Source of the DNA: Filosporella fistucella
Lineage: Eukaryota > Ascomycota > Leotiomycetes > Helotiales
DNA length: 64,000 nt
Assembly: GCA_030077755.1 (NCBI GenBank)
Contig: JAQJZZ010000019.1
Span: 1,624,501-1,688,500, forward strand
Direction of reading: 5' to 3'
Shown here: positions 2,155-48,445 of the stretch, piece after piece
Layout: each line of letters starts with the position of its first letter
Numbering within the stretch: the first letter of the stretch is position 1
Program-made: the position numbers and the translations under genes
Notes under the pieces: generated by a model
Seen by the model: the letters and a program-made list of their open reading frames with translations, nothing else
What the model was told of the DNA's origin: nothing
The model's database searches: none

Positions 2155-3426
2155 TGTTGTAGTTTGAGTGGGTCGAAAACCTATCTCGATAGGAAGTGAA
2201 GCAATTGAGTTTGGTTCTTGGTAAACCGCATTGAAAAGAAGAACGTAGTCGCCTGGCAAGAAGGATTAGAACATAATCAAGATATTAAATATAAGAAAGC
2301 CTTGAGCTAGGCTGGGTTCATTTAATAAATTCTAGCCTTCAGCTGGCCTTGTTGCTCAGCCTCACCGCGTGACTCATGCCAGAATCGCAGCAACCGCTTC
2401 AATAACCAAAACAATTTCACCTCACATACACATATCACTGCACACATCAAAAGACAAAAGATTGTGAACGGATTTGCATTGGATCGATCCATAAGACCAT
2501 CCCATATTTCCATCACTCAGCGTGTCGTCGCCAAGTAGCCTCTGTTTGGTGTACCAGCTATGTGCCACAGTCCAGCCCAGCTTGAATGGACAGGAGCACT
2601 TCCGTATGCCATCAGCTCTCACGCAGACCATCTTTCAATTCCCCTCTATCTGATACATAGAGAAGAAAAAAGATGATGCCTGCTCTTCAATCTGCAGACG
2701 CCACCACGCAATTTCATGATGGAAAAAAAAGAAACCATGCCAATATCCCCTCGAATATCCCTCCCATAAAACATCCTGATGCAGCCATGTTTGAGAAGAA
2801 ACATCCCGAAAAGATCCATCCACACTTTTCATCTAAAAAACCAGGTGCATTGCAGTAAAGAAAAAGAAAACTCATGCTCGATCTTCTATGTCGGTTGCAG
2901 CAAAGCCTGCTGACCCTCGAGGGATTATTGAAAGCAAAAAAAGACTTCGAAAACATGACCGTCATGAAATGCGTTCTGTATACCCAGGATTTCTCCACGC
3001 TAAGCCCAGGTAAAAAATGCATCATGACCGGTAACGCCCTATGTTGGCGTCTCATGCATCTGCCTGATCGCCCTTAATCATCTATTGGGTATCGAAAGAC
3101 GAGGGGGACAGCCAGGAACAAAAGACAACGCTATCTATTCTTATGCCGTTCGATGGTCGAAATCACGATATAAAGCCAGCTCTATTTGCAAGGGACAAGA
3201 GCCGGCTCGAATCGTGATGAGGCCGCCACCAGAAAATCGAAATGTCGCAGGAAAGAAACTCGAATGTAAAGCAAATTATCGACCGTAAGCGCAACCGAAG
3301 GAAATAAGGCCAGTATCCATGAATGGTCCATCGATACCCGTGTGACGCCTTTGTCCCAGTTCTATGATTTGTTGAGTGTCATGAAAAATGGAGAAGCAGA
3401 ACAAAGTTGCGTCGTCCTGAGAGGAT
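2155..3426. other. Intergenic between oxygenase 5' end and DED1 3' end
   Basis: This stretch holds the promoter of the oxygenase gene (minus strand, to the left) and the 3' flank of DED1. Open frames at 2635-3077 run on both strands, overlap each other and show no family resemblance. I see no RNA gene or repeat. Confidence 0.5.
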
Positions 3427-5902
<2,476 letters not shown>

Positions 5903-7547
5903 GGTGAAAGATTGAGATCGGTGACTGAGGCTGAGTAGAAGTTCGGATTTTTGTGTATTATGAAGTTCTCAAAAGAACAAAAGTAAGGTGAGATAGTCTC
6001 AAACTCTCGAAAAAGACCGTGGGATCTAAAGAGAGTGTGAAAAATGAGCTGGAGAGATTTATGAACCGAAACGCGATCGAAACGATGACGGAGAAAAGAA
6101 GGCCTTGCTGCTTCTTCGCTTGATCTATAAATCAAACTCGGCGTTAAAGGGTCGTAAAGTATGTGCTGTGATGTGTGTAGGGTCTTCGGAGAGAAACAAG
6201 AACTTCCAAAGAAAAGGGAGAGGAGATTGTGTGTTGATGTGTATGTGGGAGGAAGGGTTTTGGTTTTGGGAGAGAGAGTGAAGGCGATAAAGCCCACACA
6301 AATTTTGCTCGCTTCGTGCAGTACTGCGCTAAGCCATATTGGTCTTAGCTTTTCTTCTGACCGCCTCATAGGGACGGTGAATGCGATTCAATTTTTATTT
6401 GTACATTAATTCGATATAGGCGTAGTACGAAATAGGGTTCTGGAAACAAGTTCGCTTGGGACGAAATCATAGATGCAGGCCTATGTGTCACTGTCGTCAT
6501 ACCAATATACACTTTTAATTCTACATTTTGTCGAGATTTTCGCCGTTAACATCCCATCATGGTGGCAAACCCAAGCTCTTCTCGAAGCAGCTGAGGCCGG
6601 ACCGGCACGATTCAGCCCTGCACTTGATTGGATCTCAGTAATTTCCTCGCTGATACGAAAAGGGGTCAAAGTTAGGTTATTGTGAACGGACTGTAATGCA
6701 AGCTTTGTCAGTTCGAATTTTTAGTTCTTGTCAGAGTTGGGCGTAGCACTGTTATCTTTCTCGATCTATTGGGTGAAATGTGTTTCAGTTGATATTTGTC
6801 TATACACGTTTCATGGTCATAGCTGGATTTTGGCCGTGCCTTGCAAGTTTACTGAAGTATACTCGACAAGTTTCGACTTCGATATAGGATGCTGCTGTTG
6901 ATCATGAGGGTGTATCGTTCGATCTTTTTAGTACACATAAATTCCATTTGCTAGTTACTGCCAAAACAGTCCGTAAAGGCTCGCTGCGAAGTGTTGCCAT
7001 ATTCTTCACTTGATGAATATTATGAATACAAATATCTACTGCTACTTGTGCACTGACATTTCGAAATTGCAAGGGAAAGAGCGCATCATCAGCGAATTTC
7101 CATCTATGTTGACAAGCATGGAATTTGTTACCAATCCTAGGAATGTTGAGGCGAGGAAGTACAGTTCCATAACTAGTAGCATTGAGCATTCAATAGGCTC
7201 GAGGACAGTACAAGACTAGAAAGGTCTTGTCTAAGAACCGTTGACTACAAGCTCTTATATACTATTAGCCTTGCCCGAAAGAGCAGACGGGTTTTGGCTA
7301 TTCCAGAGGGACGAGAATTACGGCAGCGAAACGAGGAGGATGGAGAGGAATATGAATATTCTCGAACTAGCGTCCGTAAGACACAAAAGACGAAGCAGGA
7401 GACCAAAACTTCTGCCCTCCTGCGAATATGCGTACAACTCACATCCAAAAGCAAGTTTCACAACATGACCGACCATTGAAAGCAGACCAGGCCATTCGCC
7501 ATTCCATTTATGCCATGCTATTGTACATCTTTAATCCCCTCCCCAAA
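5903..7547. other. Intergenic: DED1 promoter/leader and PRE1 3' flank
   Basis: The first 450 bases contain the DED1 upstream region, with long pyrimidine-rich runs on its sense strand that are compatible with a fungal 5' UTR. From about 6410 to 7547 I see only short overlapping frames on both strands and no family resemblance. No RNA gene was recognised. Confidence 0.5.
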
Positions 7548-8267
7548 CTACGGGCAAGCAATTCTCGCCTCATCATCATATTCAACCTCCTTAATACCAT
7601 CCTTTGTAATAACCTTGACCAACATGCCCTTGAAATCAATCGGTAACCGCCTCTTCAATTCATCTGTACACATTCTCAAAATCTTCAACCCCTGCTCGTA
7701 GTTGATATCAGGATGGTGATGCTTATCTAGGATAGACAGGCAATAGTATTGAGCATAACCGTGAGCGGCGTATGGGAGAGGAGCCAACGATGCTAGGTAG
7801 TCGAGCCAGTAAAGGGAAGGCTTGTCGGTGATGGGATCAACGCCGCCGAGGAGGAGGTTGACGTTATAAGGCTTGCGGGATCGAAGGGAGGAGGCGAGCT
7901 CACCGCGGACGAAGTGTGCGACAGCAGAGGGAGAGAGGTCAATGTTGTTTCTCATCGAATAGAGTTGGGCATTGGCTTGGATATATTCTGCAAATTGAAC
8001 TGGATATGGTCAGCCCTACACATTGCCATTTGTGCGAAAGAATAGCTTACTTGTATCACCAGCTTCTCCAGAGAATGCCATTAAGGTGTGCGAATTCAGT
8101 GCTCGGGTCTTGTCATCAGAAGCTTTGAGAATGGTTGCTCCTCTCATCGCGGCCTTGGAGGCTGCGATGAGGGTGAAATCCTTTCCAGTTATGCCTAGTA
8201 ACACCTCCCTGTAGTGGCAGATATGTTAGAAATTGTAATGGGAGCTGAAGGAGAACTTAACCTACAT
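7548..8267 (-). CDS. PRE1: 20S proteasome subunit beta-4 (PRE1/PSMB2 type)
   Basis: This encodes the non-catalytic beta-4 subunit of the 20S core particle. Three exons are inferred: 8267-8266, 8208-8051 and 7999-7548, giving 203 aa, the usual length. Identity rests on the N-terminal LLGITGKDF, the SKAAMRG and SDDKTRALN signatures, and GEAGDTIQFAEYIQAN, which appears only after removal of the 51-nt second intron. SRKPYNVNLLLGG, LPYAAHGY and DFKGMLVKVI follow. There is no catalytic Thr1, as expected for this subunit. The start codon appears split by intron 1: exon 1 contributes AT, the intron runs from GTAGGT to CTACAG, and exon 2 supplies G followed by GAG GTG, giving Met-Glu-Val-Leu-Leu-Gly. 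No other in-frame upstream ATG was found. The gene is divergent from RRP9. Confidence 0.93.
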
Positions 8268-8727
8268 GTTGATGAGTATTCGTGGTAGATGTGAAGCTGT
8301 TCAAGTTGTTGTGATGCTTTTGAAGCTCTGCGATTCTACTCTACGCGTGGAGCTCTTGCTGCCTCTGCCTCGTCTCGCGAATGGATGTTAGCGGCAGACC
8401 CTTGTCAAGTATGGAGAAGGATAAGGTGACAAAAGTTGAGAGTATATCTCAGCCACGAGACGGTGAATAGTTTCAAGAGGACTTCAATGCACACGAATAC
8501 ATAAGAGCATTGAAACCTATAGAATCAATAATTATTGGCCCCAATATCAATTTTCATTCTGGTTTCAGTCCTGCTGAAGTCGGGATCAATCACGTGTCTC
8601 TACCGCCGCCAACCCAAATCCGTCATCCCCGTCCAAATTTCCAGAGCGGCAGAATAATTTTTTGATAAACTTCGAAAACCTCCCGCATTTCTTCGCGCAA
8701 GCAAGACAACCACAGCCCACACCCAAA
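8268..8727. promoter_or_regulatory. Divergent promoter PRE1 / RRP9
   Basis: A 460-bp region lies between the start codons of two divergently transcribed housekeeping genes and must hold both promoters. A perfect E-box-like CACGTG occurs at 8591-8596, about 130 bp upstream of the RRP9 start. I saw no clear TATA box. Co-regulation of ribosome biogenesis and proteasome genes is only an inference. Confidence 0.6.
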
Positions 8728-22310: not shown

Positions 22311-24818
22311 CTATATGAGATTAAAGCTAATATGCTCGATCCTTTTTAGCCGTGCCCATTCTCGTACCAAATCGATTCGCGGGTCATGCTCTCCTAGCGT
22401 TTCCTCATCTATCTCAATCTTATCCCAAATCCTATAACACCCAACCCTCACAAAAGTCCATTCCTTATTCTCGGAACCAGAAATCTTCTCCAATAACAGC
22501 CCACACCTTCCGTAAGGACTTAATACGCCGTCGCTACTAGCCGTCAGCTCGAGACAGAATATTCGACCTTGGCGTGATGAGAACCAGTGCCCGTCAATTT
22601 CCTCGCCATCAGCATGGATCCATCCAGCCCCTTCTGTGTTTTTGGCTCCAGCGTAGTGATTGCAGCCATTAACATTATGTTTCAGAGACGGAAGGAGAAA
22701 CCGCTCTAGTCTGTCTGTATCAAGAGGCATTAATGGAGCCCGTATACGGAGTTTGCTTGCAGTGACAGCACCGAATGGAGCTATGGAGCTGATATTCGTC
22801 ACTTCACAGTGCTCTACCTCAAAGTTTAGTGAACACTCGTCCCTAGAGAAGCTTCTTGACATCATGGTCACTGGAGTAGTAACGGATGCCCATGACCACG
22901 AAGGACCTTGTATTCGAGATATTCCCCTTGGAACTGGCCGGCAACGCCAGAGTAAACCCTTCCGCAGATGTGATCTCCAGAGACCAGCTAGATACATATC
23001 GTCTTTCAGCACAAGACTAAACGTGTAAGCTACCGCAGATATAGCTGGTAGTTTATCTTCGGAATAAGACAATGACCTTTCCGAGTACTCGGAGACGATA
23101 TATGAGTGCCAGTGCGAGTAGATTTCATCCAATTGAGATTCTTCATTAATTTCACGCCTTCGGAAAACTCGTTCGAGCGTCTCAGTCTGACATGTGATCG
23201 ATGCTTTCCGTCTTATAGCGTCCTCGCTATGAGACTCGAACTTGCGACATTTCCACTCAAAACCGTCATCAAAGAAGCTGATGATGCGGGGAGAGAGAAA
23301 CATCTCTTGAAATATCCAAGCGCGTTTGTCTGTTGGCCATGGCTTCCCCGTTCTGGACCTCTCCCTGGGTCCACTGCAATAGTACACAGCTCCGTCTGCT
23401 GAGTACTCCTCGCTTGGCAATGAAGTCATGAAAGGGAGTTTGATTGCTTCCTTTTCTCGGTTTTCGACTTTGGTTTGTATGGAAAGAAACCCATCAACGC
23501 ATGATGAAGCAATAGTCGCCGAAATGGTGACCGTTGAATTTGCATAAATGCTCGCCATCTCAGCCAGCCCTTTATTTTGGTCCTCGGGATCATCTTGGAT
23601 TATGCATAGCGAGTCAACCCATAGATATCGTATACTAAGTCCGCGGGTAACTCGTACAGCGTCTTGAATTGTTTTGGGTAGCTTGTCATAGGCTATAGAT
23701 TCCATGTTGGAGTCAAAGGTGCGACTCGTTGTCCGGAACGTTTGTGGCCCTCCCCAGCAATAGCTTAGTGTTGAATACTGAGCTCGCTGCTTTGGTAGCA
23801 TGGCAAGTTTCAGCTCCCTGCTACCATTTTTGTCTAAACCCACATCAATAACGCGAGTGGGGAGGAAAGGATCACCAGAAGCGTCGTGTGCGAGGCAAGT
23901 ACTGTGTCCGTCTAAGCACTTTTCTAGTATCGTTTTTTGCAGTAATAAATTGGAGGCCGAGCCTGGATCAGCATCGATGGGCCTTCTCTTGATAACGTCC
24001 GAAGCAGCACTCCCTGGTACAACCACCCCATTAGTGTCTCACCCCACTCAAGTGAAGTATAGAATAACCTTGAAGAGCAAATACATGTATAACACCACAA
24101 AGCTCGAACTTCCCGTGAGGTCGTTCAGGCCTAGAAATATACAGCTCGATCTTGTCATCGGTAGGCAGATACCGGACATGAACATATCTCGAGAAGGACT
24201 CCGATGTCCAGTTCATAATCTGTTCTTTGATGCTCGCGCCTGATTTCCACCGAATCATTATTTCAATCATTAATCTTGCGGTAGGACAACCGTCCAGTGC
24301 CTTCCCAGCTATATCCATAACTGGAAGACACTGGAACGAATACCCATCATCGCCATCGATAGAATCAGTCTTGATTCTATTCAATCTGGTAAATTTTTCG
24401 CAGAGAGAATTGCAAAATTTGATACCGTTGACCAAGAAGTGCTCTCCACAACCTTCAGTGAAATCAAAAGCTTCGTCAACCTCATCAAACTGCCATTCAT
24501 AGTCTACCCAGAGCTTGAGATCTTCCAGATCACGATCCTGTCCATACTTTAAGATAGTTTCAACGAGGAACCGAGACCGCCTATCGTCTGATAATGCTTC
24601 CGGGATATCTCCGATGGAATCTGGAGGGCCGTCGAATTGACAATCGTGCAAGCATGTTTCCACATACATTGCGACTGTGCTGAAATCAATGTCCTGATGT
24701 TAGAAGTCGTGCTTTTCATACATTGCTGATGTGTTGCCAGCTTACTGTTAAGGCGGAGGAGCTGTCGCATAAGCGCCAAGTTGGGGGGGCCGATTCGATT
24801 ATATGAGTGGTTCATCAT
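22311..24818 (-). CDS. HET (heterokaryon incompatibility) domain protein
   Basis: Three exons (24818-24746, 24674-24069, 24013-22311) encode 793 aa. The HET domain is clear from about residue 290: YSTLSYCWGG, then LPKTIQDAVRVTRGL, RYLWVDSLCIIQDD and EMASIYANSTVTISA, ending with RAWIFQEMFLSPRIISF. HET domains are TIR-like modules that drive allorecognition and regulated cell death in filamentous ascomycetes. The N-terminal 230 residues (acidic, with a Cys/His-containing CLHDC near residue 30) are unassigned and could be a sensor region. The C-terminus carries the usual variable region with a PSWSWAS motif. The second junction joins FALQ to GSAASD in frame. The first exon is short (24 codons) and its boundary is the least certain; a start in exon 2 at the Met of MYVETC is possible. 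Confidence 0.88.
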
Positions 24819-37381: not shown

Positions 37382-39295
37382 CTATTTTGCCCCTACAGTT
37401 CTTATGACTGGAATATACTGCCAGTATTTATAGATAGAATCCAGGCAAAACTGCCCAATTCTGTGCCGACAAGGAGGCGACGGATAATAATTATACTGCA
37501 TCGCAGCATACCCATCCGAAATCCCCGGTTTCCCTTTATGAACAGTCGTCAAACGATCCCACCAGGAACTTATATCCTGAACCTGAGGCCCAGCAATAGA
37601 CTCTCTCAACACCATTTGCGGAGTGAATAATTGCCCTCCAGTACGATCACACCAGCCTGTCTTCCCTAAATCCAGATTCCCACCATTACACTCCGGAACC
37701 GCAGGGTTAATATCCATGAGATCCAGCAAGCCAGCTGCGAATCTAGCTTCAGCTAACGTCATGTCTCTATCTCTCGGGCAGGAATAAGCTTCCAAATCCC
37801 ATCCATCAACAACATGTATACCTAGTACCTGCAGCGCAAAAGCAGTAGCATACCCCTCTACAAATGCAATCTGTCTTGTGCCCTGATCATTCGTAACAGT
37901 CGGTGGACAAAATTGATGTGAAGGGAGGCCATCAGGGTAAACGAAACCACCATTCATGAGAGAAGACATAACATGATGTCCATACTCGTGAGCAGCTACG
38001 GCTATATTACCCAGGTGGAGCGGATAATACTCGATGAACTTGCGGTCTTGATCGTAATGCGTCCAGCAATTGGGGCAAACATGTCCCGGATACCAAATAT
38101 CGAGGCGAGGAACACCTGATAGACCGACCATGGCATCACCTAGGGAACGGGTGCGGTGTAGATCTACCCAAAGTATTGAAGCTCCTGATCCGAATGATGC
38201 GGGGACATAATCATTTATGTCCATGTTGTTCTTTGTTCCCTGTTTTCCTGGCATATTCAACCATTGGGAATAGGTCACTAGATTATTATGATCTGTCCCC
38301 GATTTCATGGTGAATACGTTATCGTCCCAGACCAATTTTGCTGCTAGCACTAGGTGATCACTAGTCGTTGAGAAGATAGTAGAAGCGCGGCCTGCGGAGT
38401 TTAATTGAAGACTGAATTCTTCATAGAGATACATTGACTCATCACTCGTATAAAAGATGACTTTGGCACTTGGAAATGGGGGCATGTAATCAGTTGTTTT
38501 GGTTCCTAGAAGCTGGTACCGCATGTTGACGGTGATTCTTTGAGTTACTGGGTGTACTGTGGGCCCAGGTAATGGGCCTTCTCCTCCTGGGGGTGGACGG
38601 GCAGAAATTGAGTGAATACTGGGTACGATTTCGTTTGTGCAGGAGCAGGACGCAGTGTCATTACTCTCGAGGGATTTAGGTAATGTGATATTACGTCGAT
38701 TCATATCCTCCATCCTGAAATGCCTAGTATTGTCAGTAAGTGAACACGGGTGTCGAAGATATACTTACCAGTATTCGAATGGATGGATGAGAGACACCTT
38801 TTGAGGCTTGCTCTTAGCATCATCGATAGATAGATAGATAGTCTCAGTGTAATAGGAAGTTGCATCAGCGTGGTCAGTGTTGACAAAAGTCTTCACCTCC
38901 CAATTCTTTGCATTTTGAAGTTCAGCATTTGACAGACTGAAAGCTGTTGGAATAACAGTGCTGGAGTTGACGACAACGGCGCCGTTGGCAATGGTGCGAG
39001 GCTCAGAGCCAGCAAGGTCTTCAATACTCTGGACTATCACGCTATAGTTGACATTACTGCTGAGCTGGGTCGATCCAAGGCCAGAAAGCGAAATCCTCAA
39101 TTCAACATCAAGGCCGTTTTTGTTGTGTTCGACAGTGAAGTTCTTGTCATCAAAATAGATACCAATGCCTGAAAAGGAACAGCTTGTTGGTGGCGTTGTG
39201 ATTTCAGAGATATCATCTGTGATTTGCGTTGCAAAGAGGATAGATAGACAGATGCCTATAGCAGCAGTCACCCAGCGAAGAAGTGTATTTGGCAT
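37382..39295 (-). CDS. Secreted zinc metallopeptidase-like protein (HEYGHH)
   Basis: Two exons (39295-38769 and 38714-37382) encode 619 aa. The N-terminus (LLRWVTAAIGICLSILFAT) is a signal peptide or anchor. Residues about 35-175 look like a beta-sandwich with several NxS/T sites. The second half contains the zinc-binding HEXXH as AAHEYGHHVMS (His418, Glu419, His422). FVEGYATAF lies 40 residues on, and its Glu462 is a plausible third ligand of a gluzincin. Paired cysteines (PGHVCPNCW; SCPRD; CNGG; WCDR; PPCRHR; QFCLD) suggest disulfides in an extracellular protein. I do not recognise a named family. The ATG at 39295 is preferred over an upstream one at 39409 because it puts the hydrophobic segment at the N-terminus. 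The junction after HPFEY keeps frame (YWMEDMNRR). Confidence 0.75.
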
Positions 39296-41540
39296 CGCGA
39301 AGGAGAACAGCAAACTATCCTGGATGGATTTCGAAGTAACTGGCACCAGCAAACAATGTGCTTGTCCGCGCAGGCAAAAAGAGCTCTTTAAACATGATAG
39401 TCTTATCATTTGACATTAAACCAAGCTGAAAAGGCTGATACCACCAGTCGAGATACCTTGGCAGCTGAAGCTGCTCTACCCAACAATATGCTTCCCACAA
39501 TGCTCAGTGTCAGCAAACTTCAGATAGGCGGCGCCTTGAAACCAAGAAGAGCTATTTTTTCAGCCTGAGATTCTATCATACATTTGAATTACAGCCTTGA
39601 ACCAATAAAGACTCAAGTCACTTGACGCATTGAAAGTTGAAAACCTACTCGCTAAGAATCTTCTGCAGCCACATTGTCAGCCGCTCCAAAGATCAGACGC
39701 CTAGTTTTTATGCAGCCTTACGGAGATATGGGGTTCGGGAACTTGGCTGGTTCGGATTCATTTGTGGCGTCATTGGTGGCAGTTTCCCGAGTAGATAACA
39801 TCGAGTAGAATTCTGACCGTTACGTATGAGTGTAAGTGTGTAGTTTATTCGCAGATGCCTTTCCAAATGTTGGGAATTAATTATGCCATCACAAGGTATG
39901 TTCCAGACTGTGGACGACTTGCCGGACGATTCTAACTTGTCGTTGACTTTAAAAGGTATTTCAAACCATTTCGAGTTGAAGACTAGCAGTCCCCTCCTTC
40001 GTATCTGTCAAACCGCTCGGGATCTTTGCATATGTGTAATTATAGATGCCCAGCTGCGCGGAGGACCTAATGTAGTTTTCTTTTGCTGTCCAGTTCTCAA
40101 CTCTGCCCTTTACGGCACAAACGGCATTTAACAATATCCTGAAGTCTTTCGGAACCCAATAGTAATTATTGCGTTATTTCTACTCCAACCAGACCAAAAG
40201 AGATCCGGGGTAAGGAACTTGAATGCATGTGGCTGTCGATGACAGCCAATTATATGACTACTTAAAATACCCAAGCAATGATTGGAATAAAGCAATTGGC
40301 ATTATGATCCTAGTGGTTCTAGGGAGGTAGCAATGCTATATCTTCCCATGCCGGACGCGCCAGAAAAGCCTCAGAATTAGTCCTTCTTTGGACTACTTGG
40401 ACCCCACTTCGCCTTTAAGCTTACTTTTTACACTTCTCCCAAACATGAAAGATTGATCGCCTCTCCAGAACCTCAGATCAAATATATGATCTATCTGTTA
40501 TGAATGCAAGGCATCATTCACTGCCGTGACCATTATTTCCAAGGTACATGTAAGAGTCACTGCTAAATGATTAGTTGAAGCCGTTTGGGATAAATATCAC
40601 CAAAAATCGCGCACTTCCCCGGCTACATTCCACCAGAGATTTAGTGTTGCAGCTAAGAGAGACAAGCTTTTTCCTCGCATCGTTCCGGCACAGGGAGAAA
40701 CCACCCAGACGAACTAACGATGAGGCTCCTGTAGACTCGAACTCGACATTTGATGTCTCAAGGCCGTGTTTAATTCATTCATGGCGTGATTGTTCGTTTT
40801 CATGAGCATTGTATCGAACAAAATCAACTGTTGTCCTAGGCATCATGTTATTTGCATGATCGCGAATGATTACGAATCGCTCCTCGCATTGAAGTAACCT
40901 CCGTTGTCCCGGCAAGAAGGACCCAGGTTGAATTGAACCATTGCTTCGTGTCTAAAATTATGATCTAGTATCACTCCGCGCCATATATCGTGTGCAATCT
41001 AGTTTCTGACAACTTCCACACTTCGCCAAGTACACTTTGTTGCTGCTCGCTAAGAATTGCTTCATCCAAAAGATAGATCTTGTTTCCTTCACCAAACAGA
41101 GATCTAACTCTACAGAAACCGTCGCAGAATCGAATAGATCTGAACTTACCAAGACTTTTCTGAGATGGGACGAATAAGGCCACCACCTCGATCGCTTGGA
41201 AATGCTTTCCACGGGTTTCAATTCTATGCTCGAGTCACAATAGCCGCTAATGCGTCAGAAGTGTTGTGAACGTTCACTTGAAACGGAATCAAGTCAACGC
41301 CACGATGTTACGCACAAAGTTACCCTTCTAGAATCATAATAGTGCAATATTAAGAGCGTAAACTCCCCCTTTCTCGACAGAGATGCTAGTGGACTTACCA
41401 GTGGGAGATCTGTGCCTAGCTGTGGCAGCAGCAGCTTTCACATGTCTTGGCACTGGACCTCAGAATACTCTTTATCTAATGCTCAGCTCTCCCAACTGTT
41501 TTTTTAATTTGCTTTAATTCTTGCTCTCTTCTGATTATCC
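39296..41540. other. Intergenic upstream of the NRPS-like gene
   Basis: This stretch of 2.2 kb lies between divergent genes and contains the promoters of the metallopeptidase and the NRPS-like synthetase. Short frames (for example 39883-40131 and 40575-40805) have no support. No repeat or RNA gene was recognised. Confidence 0.45.
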
Positions 41541-44500
41541 ATGGCCACTCGATCTCCTGTGCGAAATCTCGAGATGGTTCTTCCGGATGAAAGCCAACCT
41601 TCAGATGTCAACCCCAGTTATATTCTACATTCACAACACGAAACCGAAGACACCTTCATTATCCCAGATATCGACACTCTTCCTAAATTGTTCAAGTCAC
41701 AAGCTGAAAACTGTGGCGATGCAACATTGTTCTCTTTTCGAAGTCATTCAGATGGGAATTTGACAACAATATCATACTCAGAGGCTTACGCCAAATCATA
41801 TCAGCTCGCGACAAACCTTCACAACCTCTTTCCTAAGTTCAACGTGGACGCACCTGTAGTCGGAATATGGCTGGAAAGATCAATTGATCTACATCTTGCC
41901 ATTCTTGCTACCACAATATCAGGTGCCACTTGGTTACCATTCGATGCAGCTGCACCATGTACTCGTGTACAGGCATGTATCCAAGACAGTAAAGCATGCA
42001 TCCTTCTCTGCGACGAAGAGCACTACAACTCAGCTGCCAAAGCAACCGAAGGTATTTTCGGATGTCGTGTTGTGACCGTCCAAGAATTATCTCATCATCG
42101 CCAATCAATATGTATGGACATCAGAGAACTTCCAGGGGCAAAGGCAAAAGATACAGCTTATATGATTTATACAAGCGGATCGACAGGTACGCCGAAAGGC
42201 ATTGAGATTCCCCACAGTGCTGCGCTTGCTTTCTGTCTGAGTGAACGATCTGTTCTTGAGACGAATGCCAAAGATGTTGTGTGGCAAGGTTTCAGTGCTG
42301 CTTTTGATATGTTTATTGAAGAAGTGTACGTATGTTCAACCTCAACTCTTGACATATCTGATGCCATTTCTTAGATGGGTAAGCATTGCCGGGGGTGCGC
42401 AACTCGCAATCGGGAATCGTCTCGAATGTCAAGATGTTGCTGATCTTGGAGGTGCGCATGGAATATGGGCTCAGCGTGGAGTCACGCTCGTCAATGCTGT
42501 GCCGACACTTATCAATATCATGACTTCACTTGACAGTGATTGTCCACTCCCGCCATCCGTACGACTTCTAAACCTAGGAGGTGAGGCATGCCCTATGGCA
42601 CTAGTAAACCGGTTGTGGTCGCCAACTTTACGAATCATCAACACATACGGTCCCTCGGAAACGACAGTCACTGCCACATTCCAGGAGTTATTTCCAGAAC
42701 AGCAGGTGACTATTGGAAAGCCGTTGCCGATGTATCACGCCATGATTTTGAGAATTCAGGAGAGTGATGGAGGGAAATCGTGGATCCCGTCCGCAATTCC
42801 CTTGCTAGAAGGCGCGGAGGGAGAATTAGCCATTGGTGGTCATTGCCTGGGAAAGGGATATGTGGATCGGCCAACTCTCACCAAGGAAAAGTTTATCATT
42901 CACCCAATATACACCGACCAGAGATTATACAGGACTGGCGACTTGGTGCGACTTGACAAGGATTTGAATATTGTTTTCTTGGGACGAATCGACACGCAAG
43001 TCAAACATCGTGGATTCCGTATCGAGCTGGGCGAGATCGAACATGCAATATCAACACATCCCAGAGTTCAGACGGCAGCCGTCATTCTATCAATCTACAA
43101 TGACCGCCTTGAAGCCTATGTCGTCACTAGAGAGAGTGAAACAATCGGAGTTGGAGAGATTCGAGATAAGCTTCGCCATCTACCGGCGTACATGCAGCCC
43201 GAAGAATTTTGCTTCATCTCAGCAGATGAGATGCCTCGTCTACCAAGCGGCAAGATTAATGCTAAGGCTTTACAAATCTTGTCTGAACAATTCGCTTCAG
43301 CCCAGAAGACAGACGGCAGTGATGGTTCCATTCATTCTGGAAGTACACTCTATGACGGCTCAACCCCGGGTATCGTTCTTCGAGCCATGACAGAAACATT
43401 TCCCAAATCAGCCAAGATCGATATATGCAGTGACTTTTTCGACGATCTTGGAGGACACAGTCTTCTCGCTGCTCAGCTCGTCACTAAAATCCGGAAAGAG
43501 GCTCCAAATGGATCGGCATTGAAAGGTATAGGATTGACTTCAATTTATACCCATCGTACTGCGGAGGCGATAGCGGCCAGCTTCGCGCATAGATCTGATT
43601 CAGAAAAGGAGACAAGAACTGATGCTCAAATGGGAGATCACTGGCCGGTATCAAGGAGAAATTACATACTTTGCGGGATTGCGCAAGTTCCAGCTCTGCT
43701 ATTCCTCTTCACCGTCGAAGCGATCACAATCTTGGTGCCATATCTTGTTTTCTTCTTTATGTTGCAAGATCTCAACGTAGGATTTGCTATCTTAATCACC
43801 TACGCTGTATTTGTTGTTATACCCCTCCTGCGAGGTCTGACAGGAATCATTGGAAAATGGATTGTCCTTGGGAGAGCCAAGGCAGGAGAGTATCCTTTGT
43901 ATGGTTCTTACTACTATAGATGGTGGCTAGCTGAGCATTTTGCTGGGCTGGTGGATATGGTTGCTATTGCAGACACACCTCTTCTACCAGCTCTGATGCG
44001 GTGTATGGGAGCAAAAGTTGGGAAACACTGCCATTTCGGACACAATAATTCGAGTCCTGCGTATGATTTATTGACGATTGGAAATGATGTAGTGCTGGGA
44101 AAAGATGTCGTGTTTGAAACGAGCTGGGTTGAGAGAGGTCGCCTCATACTTGCCCCCATTGTGGTTGAATCTGATGCTATGGTAGGGAGCAATTCTGTGC
44201 TAGGTAAGCCCTATCCTTCCGACCACTGGTTGAGAGCTGGACGTCTTCTTCTTTCTAAGACCAAATTACACACCTCGGAAAGAGATTTTCCTAACCTTGA
44301 CCCAGAAGGAGGAACCATCGTCGAACAAGGGGGTGAACTCGGTCCAATGACTATGCTCCCTCGAGGCTCAACCATCCCATCCGGGGAGAAATGGACCGGA
44401 TCCCCAGCTAGATTCCACAACCTCGTACCAGATATCGGAAATATGCAGAAATCTCGACCCTGTCAAGTCCGCTTCATGGCGAATTATATCCTTATGACTT

Positions 44501-45965
44501 TGACATCCGTTTTCATCCTCCCTATCATATATTTCGCACCCCAGATCCCCAGTATGCTGCTTTTCGACTTTGTCCATATTCCTGGGGTTGGATTATACAT
44601 CCAAACTGCGATCGTCTGTGTACCTGCTGCCATCATCTACCTCCTCCTGGTCTATGTAGAGCTCTTCGTGTTACGCTGGCTTGTCCTCGGAAAAGTGGTC
44701 GAATGCTCCTATCACACTACCTCGATCTACTTCTGGAGAAAATGGTTAGTAGATAGATTGATGGATATAAGCCTCGTTGCTCTTGGTCCCGTCTATGCAA
44801 CACTCTATGTCGTTCCTTTCCTACGTTCCCTTGGTGTCAAGGTTGGCAAAGGAGCAGAGGTATCGACTGCTCGTATGATCAACTTTGAGCTCACGGACAT
44901 TGGAGAGCAATCCTTTATTGCGGATCGAGCTCTGGTTGGCGACTCGGGCGTGCGGCACCATATTGTGACATTGAAGAAGACAAAACTGGATAAACGTGCG
45001 TTCTTGGGAAACAGTTCTATGGTCTTGCAAGGAACCGAGCTGCCTTCAAACACTTTGGTTGGGGTCTTGTCGATTGCTCCCGAGGTTCCTCTCAAACAAG
45101 GGCAGAGCTGTTTTGGCAGTCCTGCTGTAATCATGCCCGTCAGACAACGCTGTGCAGTCAATCATTCAGCAACTGTTCTGTATAATCCTGGACGCAAACT
45201 CATTGCGCTGCGACTGTTTATAGAAGGACTACGTATCATGATTCCTCGAATACTTGTCGTCTTCGGACTCGGCTTTGGTTTACAAGTCTTTGTGACGGGC
45301 TATGATCATCTCGGACTCTGGCCAATGTTGCTCCTGTTACCAATATTTTACTTTTTTTGTAAGTTCTCCAACACATACCAGTCTTGGAAGATTGGCACTA
45401 ACAACAAACTCACACAGTCTTTGCTATTCCCTCCGTGGCTTTTGTAGTCCTCTTCAAATGGATCCTCATCGGGCACTATCACCACGCAGAATGGCCACTT
45501 TGGAGCATGAAAGTTTGGCTTTCCGAGTTCGTCACTTCAGTATACGAAACAGTCTCACCACTTTTTATTGATATGTTACCTGGAACTCCCTTTCTTGCAT
45601 GGTTCTTCCGAATTATGGGAGTTCAGATCGGATCTCTTACAACACTTCTCTCAAACGATATAACAGAATATGATATGGTGAGTATAGGAAATGAAGCGGT
45701 TCTGAATCGCCATGCTGGACCGCAGACCCATCTTTTCGAGGATCGAATTATGAAAGTTGGACGGGTGGACATTGAAGATAGGGCTTGCATGAAAGTTTAT
45801 TCTGTATGCTTGCCAAATAGTCGGGTTGGAGCAGGTGGGCAGCTGGGCTGTTTGTCACTAGTCATGAAGGGAGAGACTGTTCCAGCTGGAGAAGCTTGGG
45901 AGGGAGCTCCTATTGCTCCTAGACGTGCACAAGGCAGACGGCTTGTGAAGGAGACAAATTTTTAA
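41541..45965 (+). CDS. Pls-like NRPS: A-T plus three TM/beta-helix blocks (poly-amino-acid synthetase candidate)
   Basis: Three exons (41541-42325, 42375-45358, 45418-45965) encode 1438 aa. The adenylation domain (about 45-560) has A3 YTSGSTGTPKG (210-220), A5 NTYGPSETT, A7 YRTGDLV, A8 GRIDTQVKHRGFRIELGEIE and A10 LPSGKIN with Lys555. A carrier domain follows with its phosphopantetheine Ser624 in DDLGGHSLL. There is no condensation, reductase or thioesterase domain. Instead three blocks follow: hydrophobic pair 693-755 then beta-helix 800-945; hydrophobic pair 962-1030 then beta-helix 1078-1185; hydrophobic pair about 1208-1280 then beta-helix to the end. The beta-helix parts show hexapeptide-like LTIGNDVVLGK and MVGSNSVLGK patterns. 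This order is that of bacterial epsilon-poly-L-lysine synthetase Pls (NRPS terminal domain family), and a fungal relative has been reported from Epichloe. The product here is unknown; an iterative homopolymer of a basic amino acid is the best guess. It should be an integral membrane enzyme needing a PPTase. Confidence 0.9.
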
Positions 45966-46741: not shown

Positions 46742-48445
46742 ATGGCACCATCTGCAACAAACGGTTCCTCGAACGGATCGTCAAAAATTGACTTTACTTC
46801 CTTCTCAAATGTAATCAATGGGAAGCTCTCCTCGACTTCCAATACTCGCGCTGGAATCAATCCCTCGACCAAGAAAGAGAATTGGCCCGTTCCAGTTTCT
46901 ACCCAGAAGGATTTAGATTCTGCCGTCGAGGCAGGTAGAGCTGCATTCCTCAAATGGAGTAAGACGAGTGTGAAGGAGCGAAGGGAAAAACTGCTTGCTT
47001 TCGCAAAGGGATTGGAGGCTCACACGGATGAGTTTGCAAAGCTGTTGACGACCGAACAAGGAAAACCAGTTAGTGGACTCGATACGATTCAAGAGGTGGA
47101 AACTGACAGCTTATAGATCACATTTGCCACAAACGAAGTCGGAACTGGTGTTACGTGGCTCTCTGAGATTGCGAAGTTGGATCTGCCAGAGGAGATCATT
47201 GAGGATAATGATGACAGACAGGTTATCACAAGATATACCCCACTCGGTGTAGTTGGAGCGATTGTGCCATGGAACTTTCCCATCCAACTTGCTTGTGGAA
47301 AGATCGCTCCTGCACTGTTGACTGGAAACGTCATTATTGTGAAGCCATCGTGAGTTTTGCGACCAGGTGAAGTTGTGGAGCTGACTTTGGAAGGCCGTTC
47401 ACCCCATACTGTGATCTCAAGATCGCAGAGCTCGCACAGCAATATTTCCCCCCTGGTGTTGTTCAAGCATTGAGTGGAGATGATAATCTTGGACCATGGT
47501 TGACTTCCCACCCTGGCATTGATAAGATTAGTTTCACTGGCTCGACTGCCACTGGAAAGAAGGTTATGGAGAGTGCTAGTAAGACTCTCAAGAGAGTCAC
47601 CCTTGAGCTGTGAGAAAATCCGCTGGCAGTTGGAGAGTAAATTCGCTGACATTGATGATAGGGGAGGAAACGACCCCGCCATCGTCTGCAAGTCCGTGAA
47701 CATCAAGGAGACAGCTCCCAAGATCGCTACTCTTGCATTTATGAATTCTGGACAAGTAGGATTGACGAAACTCAAAATCTTGCAATAGTACTGACAATCA
47801 TAGATCTGTCTCTGTCTCAAGCGTATTTACATACACAAGGATATATACGACGAATTCCGTGATGCTATGGTCGAATATACCAAGACTTTGCAAGTTGGTG
47901 ACGGGTTCAAGGATGGCGTATTCCTCGGCCCAGTTCAAAACTCGATGCAATATGAACGTGTCAAGGGGATCTTCGACGATGTTGAGAAGAATGGAATGAA
48001 GATCGCTGTGGGTGGGAAGGTAGAGAGCTCAGGAGGATACTTCATCAACCCTACTATTGTCGACAATCCAAAGGAAGACTCAAGAATTGTGACAGAAGAG
48101 CCATTCGGTGAGTTTCAAAGGATAAGGTTGACAAGACATAAGCTGATAGAAACAGGTCCTATCGTTCCAATTCTCTCCTGGACAGACGAAGACGATGTCA
48201 TTGCTCGCGCAAATGATACCAAGATGGGTCTTGGAGCTTCCGTTTGGTCCTCTGATTTGACCGAGGCTGCTCGCATTGCCAAGCAACTTCAGGCTGGTAG
48301 CGTCTGGGTGAATGCACACATTGAAGTTTCACCTCTTGCTCCATTTGGTGGTCACAAGGAGAGTGGTATCGGTAGTGAGTGGGGAGTCAGTGGACTGAAA
48401 CATTTCTGCAACTCTCAATCGCTGTTCTTGAAGAAGAAAGTGTAA
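46742..48445 (+). CDS. NAD(P)-dependent aldehyde dehydrogenase
   Basis: Six exons (46742-47068, 47117-47349, 47394-47609, 47662-47755, 47804-48107, 48156-48445) encode 487 aa, a normal ALDH length. Landmarks: [15 protein letters not shown] and IVKPS of the cofactor-binding site, [15 protein letters not shown], the general-base glutamate in [12 protein letters not shown], the nucleophilic cysteine in [25 protein letters not shown], and the C-terminal [16 protein letters not shown]. Each intron removed (44-52 nt) rejoins a conserved motif, notably LELGG and GQIC. The substrate is not predictable; the [17 protein letters not shown] ending is common in fungal ALDHs tied to aromatic or amine catabolism and metabolite clusters. 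It lies 0.8 kb downstream of the Pls-like gene in the same orientation, so an aldehyde- or amine-related accessory role is possible but unproven. Confidence 0.93.

Follow-up and report, generated by a model that had tools for sequence, protein, structure and literature searches.

The gene described here lies on the forward strand at positions 41541 to 45965 of a 64,000-nucleotide stretch of DNA (hereafter the window) from the filamentous fungus Filosporella fistucella (assembly GCA_030077755.1, contig JAQJZZ010000019.1, positions 1,624,501 to 1,688,500). The gene is complete, with four exons, three introns and a predicted protein of 1,404 amino acids. Judged by the residues of its predicted substrate pocket, the protein is probably a PosA-type synthetase of a cationic homo-poly-amino-acid (CHPA), and its polymer would most likely be delta-poly-L-ornithine. 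An earlier reading of the DNA letters (the sequence-only reading) gave the correct coordinates, with the ATG at 41541 and the stop codon ending at 45965, and likened the gene to the epsilon-poly-L-lysine synthetases and to the Epichloe enzyme in particular, a likeness that the pocket and the protein identities did not bear out.

The substrate code of the fungal adenylation (A) domain was DMENNGTVTK (residues 256, 257, 260, 302, 328, 330, 352, 360, 361, and 555). The ten positions were first placed by gramicidin synthetase numbering, and eight of them were then confirmed through L015, an Acinetobacter baumannii plasmid record that encodes the A domain of PDB entries 8g95-8g98 (946.9 bits). Because L015 encodes this A domain and carries eight PosA residues at their published numbers, the comparison is with PosA itself. 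According to Patel and Gulick (2023; PMC10522769), PosA makes delta-poly-L-ornithine of 7 to 12 units in vitro, with the delta linkage distinguished from an alpha linkage by dansyl labelling, and favours L-ornithine over L-lysine more than 160-fold. Its code is DMEHNGTVSK, and ornithine is contacted by D217, M218, E221, T304, and S313; D217 and E221, both essential, bind the two amines of ornithine, M218 obstructs longer substrates, and H260 makes no contact with the substrate (PMC10522769). The five contact residues aligned to D256, M257, E260, T352, and T361 of the fungal protein. Four were identical, and the last was a serine-to-threonine change that preserves a hydroxyl, while the noncontact H260 aligned to N302 (code position 4). 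Asp256 and Glu260 are the counterparts of the amine-binding pair, so the cationic monomer proposed by the sequence-only reading seems well founded.

The code of the Pls-type enzymes, in contrast, was DAESIGTVVK, as read from an alignment to PDB 7wew (the A domain of epsilon-polylysine synthetase) and as also found in L019, L020, and L101 to L104. The fungal code differed from it at positions 2, 4, 5, and 9, and position 2 (Met versus Ala) holds the residue described as setting chain length (PMC10522769). The identities pointed the same way: the fungal protein was 35.7% identical to PosA (L015) over 1,307 aligned positions and 28.5% and 29.5% identical to the Pls-type proteins of L101 (annotated pls) and L020, which were 55.0% identical to each other. 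Additionally, an insertion near PosA residues 132 to 147 was present in the fungal protein and missing in the three Pls-type rows shown, and it also occurred in L014 and L018, members of other groups. Epls, the Epichloe enzyme described by Purev et al. (2020; PMC7179176), makes epsilon-polylysine, is reported to be 51% identical to the Streptomyces albulus Pls, and has a conserved Pls pocket. It is likewise fungal and has the same domain layout and family as the window protein, but the window protein has a PosA-type pocket and the lower identities given above, a contrast drawn from the published description of Epls and from L101 and L020. Judging by pocket and identity, we are firm in placing the fungal protein outside the Pls/Epls type, although the Pls-type enzymes share its family (TIGR02353) and probably its overall mechanism.

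Relatives were collected by tblastn on plasmid records and by a single scan across bacterial and archaeal genomes, giving 95 bacterial rows in total. The genome scan relied on patterns drawn from alignment A2 and ranked its hits by how similar they were to the fungal protein, and the best 80 of at least 568 confirmed stretches (at least 594 candidates) were used; the share of DME-type codes among the bacterial rows (79 of 95) is thus a product of the sampling. Trees were made with the "quick" method from the 44 of 96 rows left after a redundancy cut at 66% identity, with the Shimodaira-Hasegawa-like approximate likelihood ratio test (SH-aLRT) as the only measure of support and the supports counted as splits. 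In the full-length tree, the fungal protein fell inside a 29-row set (SH-aLRT, 100) that was composed of itself, 26 bacterial DMExNG rows including PosA, and two DLEDIG rows, with four other DMExNG rows and all six Pls rows outside. Separate trees of the half containing the A and carrier (T) domains and of the C-terminal half each recovered the identical set, again with a value of 100. At the 23 sites that separated the 6 Pls rows from the 79 DMExNG rows, the fungal protein had the DMExNG state 18 times, the Pls state once, and neither state four times.

A number of observations weigh against assigning the gene to ornithine polymerization. The 29-row set includes two rows with a different code (DLEDIG), and the two halves disagreed on the neighbours of the fungal protein within it, the A+T half pointing to Pseudomonadota and the C-terminal half to Bacteroidota. 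The fungal end branch was very long (1.87 changes per column in the full-length tree). The approximately unbiased (AU) test rejected neither a placement beside the Pls rows (P = 0.258) nor one outside the 32 rows with DME or DLED codes (P = 0.313). Three other non-Pls bacterial groups also mostly had the DME state (13, 16, and 17 of the 23 sites), so these sites oppose Pls more than they support ornithine. Codes can mislead as well, and PosA itself is reported to bind lysine and to activate it weakly (PMC10522769). Finally, no recognizable ornithine-pathway or polymer-degrading enzyme was seen among the window proteins scanned. The trees favour a placement within the ornithine clade without proving it. 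We weighed gene transfer from a particular bacterial phylum and set the idea aside, because the identities to the 80 loci (32.7 to 37.0%) had overlapping ranges among Bacteroidota, Pseudomonadota, and Verrucomicrobiota and the AU tests left the position unfixed.

These points bear on two other readings of the pocket. That the gene encodes an epsilon-poly-L-lysine synthetase like Epls would fit the shared layout and TIGR02353 membership, the production of epsilon-polylysine demonstrated in Epichloe (PMC7179176), the capacity of a PosA-type pocket to bind lysine, and the AU result for the Pls grouping; however, the four code differences, among them Met for Ala at the chain-length position, and the gap between identities of 28.5% and 29.5% and the 51% reported for Epls and S. 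albulus Pls make it unlikely. Second in rank, and also doubtful, is the activation of another cationic amino acid, such as diaminobutyrate, arginine, or a modified ornithine, to give a polymer not yet described. The asparagine at code position 4 departs from the usual histidine, the first six code letters (DMENNG) were matched by a single one of the 95 bacterial rows (L058), and homologues with different pockets exist (PMC10522769). Against this, every PosA contact residue is retained or conservatively replaced, and the enzymes for diaminobutyrate and diaminopropionate are described with Phe at code position 2 (PMC10522769), as in the code DFECLSAVTK of L018.

Compared with known systems, the protein that we favour as a candidate poly-ornithine synthetase shared with PosA the order of A domain, T domain, and six transmembrane (TM) segments with three blocks (PMC10522769), and it differed in being encoded by a eukaryotic gene with three introns, in its longer N terminus, and in the asparagine for histidine noted above. 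Patel and Gulick described a fungal CHPA branch within the ornithine-activating group (PMC10522769). The gene has in common with this branch a fungal host, a length of less than 1,500 residues, and probably the ornithine-type group, and it most likely belongs there, as far as the published description of the branch allows.

The gene combines three overlapping open reading frames (ORFs) of the forward strand within 41541 to 45965. The sequence-only reading of this locus needs one amendment, the presence of three introns. The start is fixed at 41541 because an in-frame stop lies upstream at 41532 without an intervening ATG. From splice signals and comparison with relatives, we infer the following four-exon model.

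41541-42325, forward: exon 1, with the start codon and the first part of the A domain (ORF, PF00501 match, upstream stop at 41532).
42326-42374, forward: intron 1, 49 nt, phase 2, GTACGT...TTAG; its removal restores the A-domain frame EEVWVSIAGGA, matching relatives.
42375-44203, forward: exon 2, with the remaining A domain, the carrier, TM pair 1, and the start of block C1 (profile matches).
44204-44305, forward: intron 2, 102 nt (a multiple of three, stop-free), GTAAGC...TCCTAAC...CCCAG (an insert relative to the bacterial rows).
44306-45358, forward: exon 3, with the end of C1, TM pair 2, C2, and the start of TM pair 3 (TIGR02353, C2 model).
45359-45417, forward: intron 3, 59 nt, phase 1, GTAAGT...CACTAAC...CACAG; its removal restores the frame into C3.
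45418-45965, forward: exon 4, with the remainder of TM pair 3, C3, and the stop codon (TIGR02353, 174.3 bits for the ORF at 45435-45965 by itself).

Intron 2 corresponds to a 34-residue insert that was missing in all seven bacterial rows of alignment A1, and its signals (GTAAGC, TCCTAAC, and CCCAG) resemble those of a fungal intron. Since it is in frame and stop-free, the raw ORF reads through it, and it is easily overlooked, being visible only by comparison with relatives. If it were retained, 34 extra residues would be placed in the C1 block with the protein otherwise unbroken. No second gene above a trivial score was found in the 45.8-Mb, 19-contig genome.

The spliced protein matched TIGR02353, the Pls/PosA family, with 532.5 bits against a curated cut-off of 423.1 (E = 1.6e-159, far beyond chance), and the match ran end to end, residues 698 to 1388 covering positions 2 to 695 of the 695-position profile. 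The family, the A and carrier domains, and the three hydrophobic pairs each followed by a C block had all been proposed by the sequence-only reading, and all were recovered. The A domain was matched by PF00501 on two exons, by PF13193, and by TIGR01733 (318.0 bits; cut-off, 317.4), and the carrier was matched by PF00550 (25.2 bits; cut-off, 20.8). The features were placed as follows.

41673-43299, forward: adenylation domain, residues ~45-570 (PF00501, PF13193, TIGR01733), with the codons of D256, M257, and E260 at 42306-42320.
43459-43461, forward: carrier serine S624 in LGGHS, the phosphopantetheine site (PF00550; S624 invariant in 8 of 8 rows of A1).
43696-44451, forward: TM pair 1 (residues 703-746), then the C1 block (hydropathy, TIGR02353).
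44473-45201, forward: TM pair 2 (residues 928-992), then the C2 block, for which the model is a hexapeptide-type beta-helix (hydropathy, model, fold search).
45235-45914, forward: TM pair 3 (residues 1182-1233), then the C3 block, which contains the motif QTHLFEDR at 45723-45746 (TIGR02353, hydropathy).

Hydropathy peaks occurred in these three pairs, with an extra peak at residues 1026 to 1044. The beta-helix was modelled for the middle (C2) block alone, which gave helices and a beta-helix (pLDDT, 88.6; pTM, 0.83); its nearest solved folds were hexapeptide acyltransferases, in a search that covered mainly model residues 116 to 288. Condensation, thioesterase, and reductase families were not reported in the coding stretches scanned, in line with the sequence-only reading. 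A better alignment of the C-terminal half to unrelated acyltransferases, which the sequence-only reading had named as a refutation, was not seen: its PDB sequence matches (34 chains at E values up to 10; best E, 3.3e-4), including those to other hexapeptide proteins, were far weaker than that to TIGR02353, and the top two, spanning 36 and 55 residues, were gamma carbonic anhydrase or complex-I subunits. The positions near-invariant in the 95 bacterial rows (at least 98%) were all retained in the C-terminal half (48 sites) and in the T domain (6 sites), and the A domain retained 53 of its 55, a pattern expected from selection on a working enzyme. It is very improbable that the gene is nonfunctional, a reading in which the long branch could reflect relaxed selection, or that the enzyme moves just one aminoacyl group onto a membrane acceptor instead of polymerizing, a reading in whose favour simple acetyltransferases have the beta-helix fold too. 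Both are opposed by the frame, intact in this genome, the three well-formed introns, and the 48 retained C-terminal positions, which are not a pattern of decay.

By analogy with PosA and Pls, the A domain of the putative poly-ornithine synthetase would adenylate L-ornithine, and the carrier, once modified by a phosphopantetheinyl transferase of the host, would be loaded with ornithine as a thioester. The three beta-helix blocks would then form delta-amide bonds repeatedly, working together as a single domain with the pseudo-threefold arrangement modelled for PosA (PMC10522769). A short polymer would be released, probably to the exterior of the cell or else into a compartment; this export, and the action that the polymer may have there against competing microbes, are guesses.

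Several neighbouring genes were seen in the window. Directly downstream of the synthetase, an aldehyde dehydrogenase gene lies in pieces at 46742-48445 on the forward strand (PF00171), and a heterokaryon-incompatibility (HET) domain gene is located at 22314-24026 on the reverse strand (PF06985); a fungal transcription-factor domain is also encoded. About 2.1 kb away and divergent from the synthetase, two ORFs at 37382-39409 on the reverse strand apparently form one gene across a short GT-AG intron near 38721-38766. Its product has an N-terminal hydrophobic stretch and a zinc-peptidase-like HEYGHH (HExxH) motif, and it gave no Pfam or PDB sequence match. A functional link to the synthetase was considered and not adopted for this gene without a family match; as the synthetases of L020 and L101 each adjoin an M1 metallopeptidase gene, a role in processing or self-protection would be worth considering.

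The flanks of the 80 bacterial loci were clustered for monomer-supply genes, and representatives of six recurrent clusters (of 30 listed) were scanned. They included phosphopantetheinyl transferase genes (three clusters) and GNAT, SDR, and transglutaminase-like genes, with no ornithine or lysine pathway gene among these six. DME-code synthetases often adjoined a GNAT acetyltransferase (one cluster, 13 of 80 loci), whose role might be to modify the polymer or to protect the producer, and the phosphopantetheinyl transferase clusters were found at 11, 9, and 8 of the 80 loci, each assignment being that of the cluster representative scanned. Neighbours of these two kinds were recorded at the following positions.

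L022, 9898-10428
L035, 5195-5824
L076, 9813-10466
L095, 9852-10427
L013, 6192-7303

Three loci from Verrucomicrobia and Planctomycetes (L026, L072, and L094) had the lysine-type code DAESIGTVIK. The full-length and C-terminal trees separated L026 and L072 from the actinobacterial Pls rows, and the A+T tree put them on the same side as these rows (support, 99), a conflict that could be explained by pocket convergence or by A-domain exchange. L018, whose synthetase (2224-8643, on a Streptomyces plasmid) adjoins diaminobutyrate transaminase and aspartate kinase genes, is likely a diaminobutyrate polymer locus.

In the descriptions given by the two sources, the Epichloe polylysine enzyme is the only fungal CHPA synthetase with a described product (PMC7179176, PMC10522769), and the 2023 account lists a fungal ornithine-type branch with no assayed fungal member reported in that account (PMC10522769). 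Since that branch had already been placed in the ornithine group, the gene adds a member to a known kind. Among the literature titles found on delta-poly-L-ornithine, none concerned a fungal product, which is a weak test of absence from print. Being complete, the sole one found above a trivial score in its genome, and provided with a corrected four-exon model, the gene is a clean candidate for testing poly-ornithine synthesis in fungi. We lean, by a little, towards the view that the fungus makes delta-poly-L-ornithine through a lineage separate from the Epichloe polylysine synthetase, so that fungi would hold at least two CHPA lineages with different monomers; layout alone should not be used to label such fungal genes polylysine synthetases. 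A synthetic 12-mer of delta-poly-ornithine inhibited yeasts, with minimal inhibitory concentrations of 0.15 to 0.30 g/liter for Saccharomyces, Cryptococcus, and Candida (PMC10522769). A fungal producer would thus raise questions of self-protection, and the polymer, if it is made, would serve one fungus as a weapon against others.

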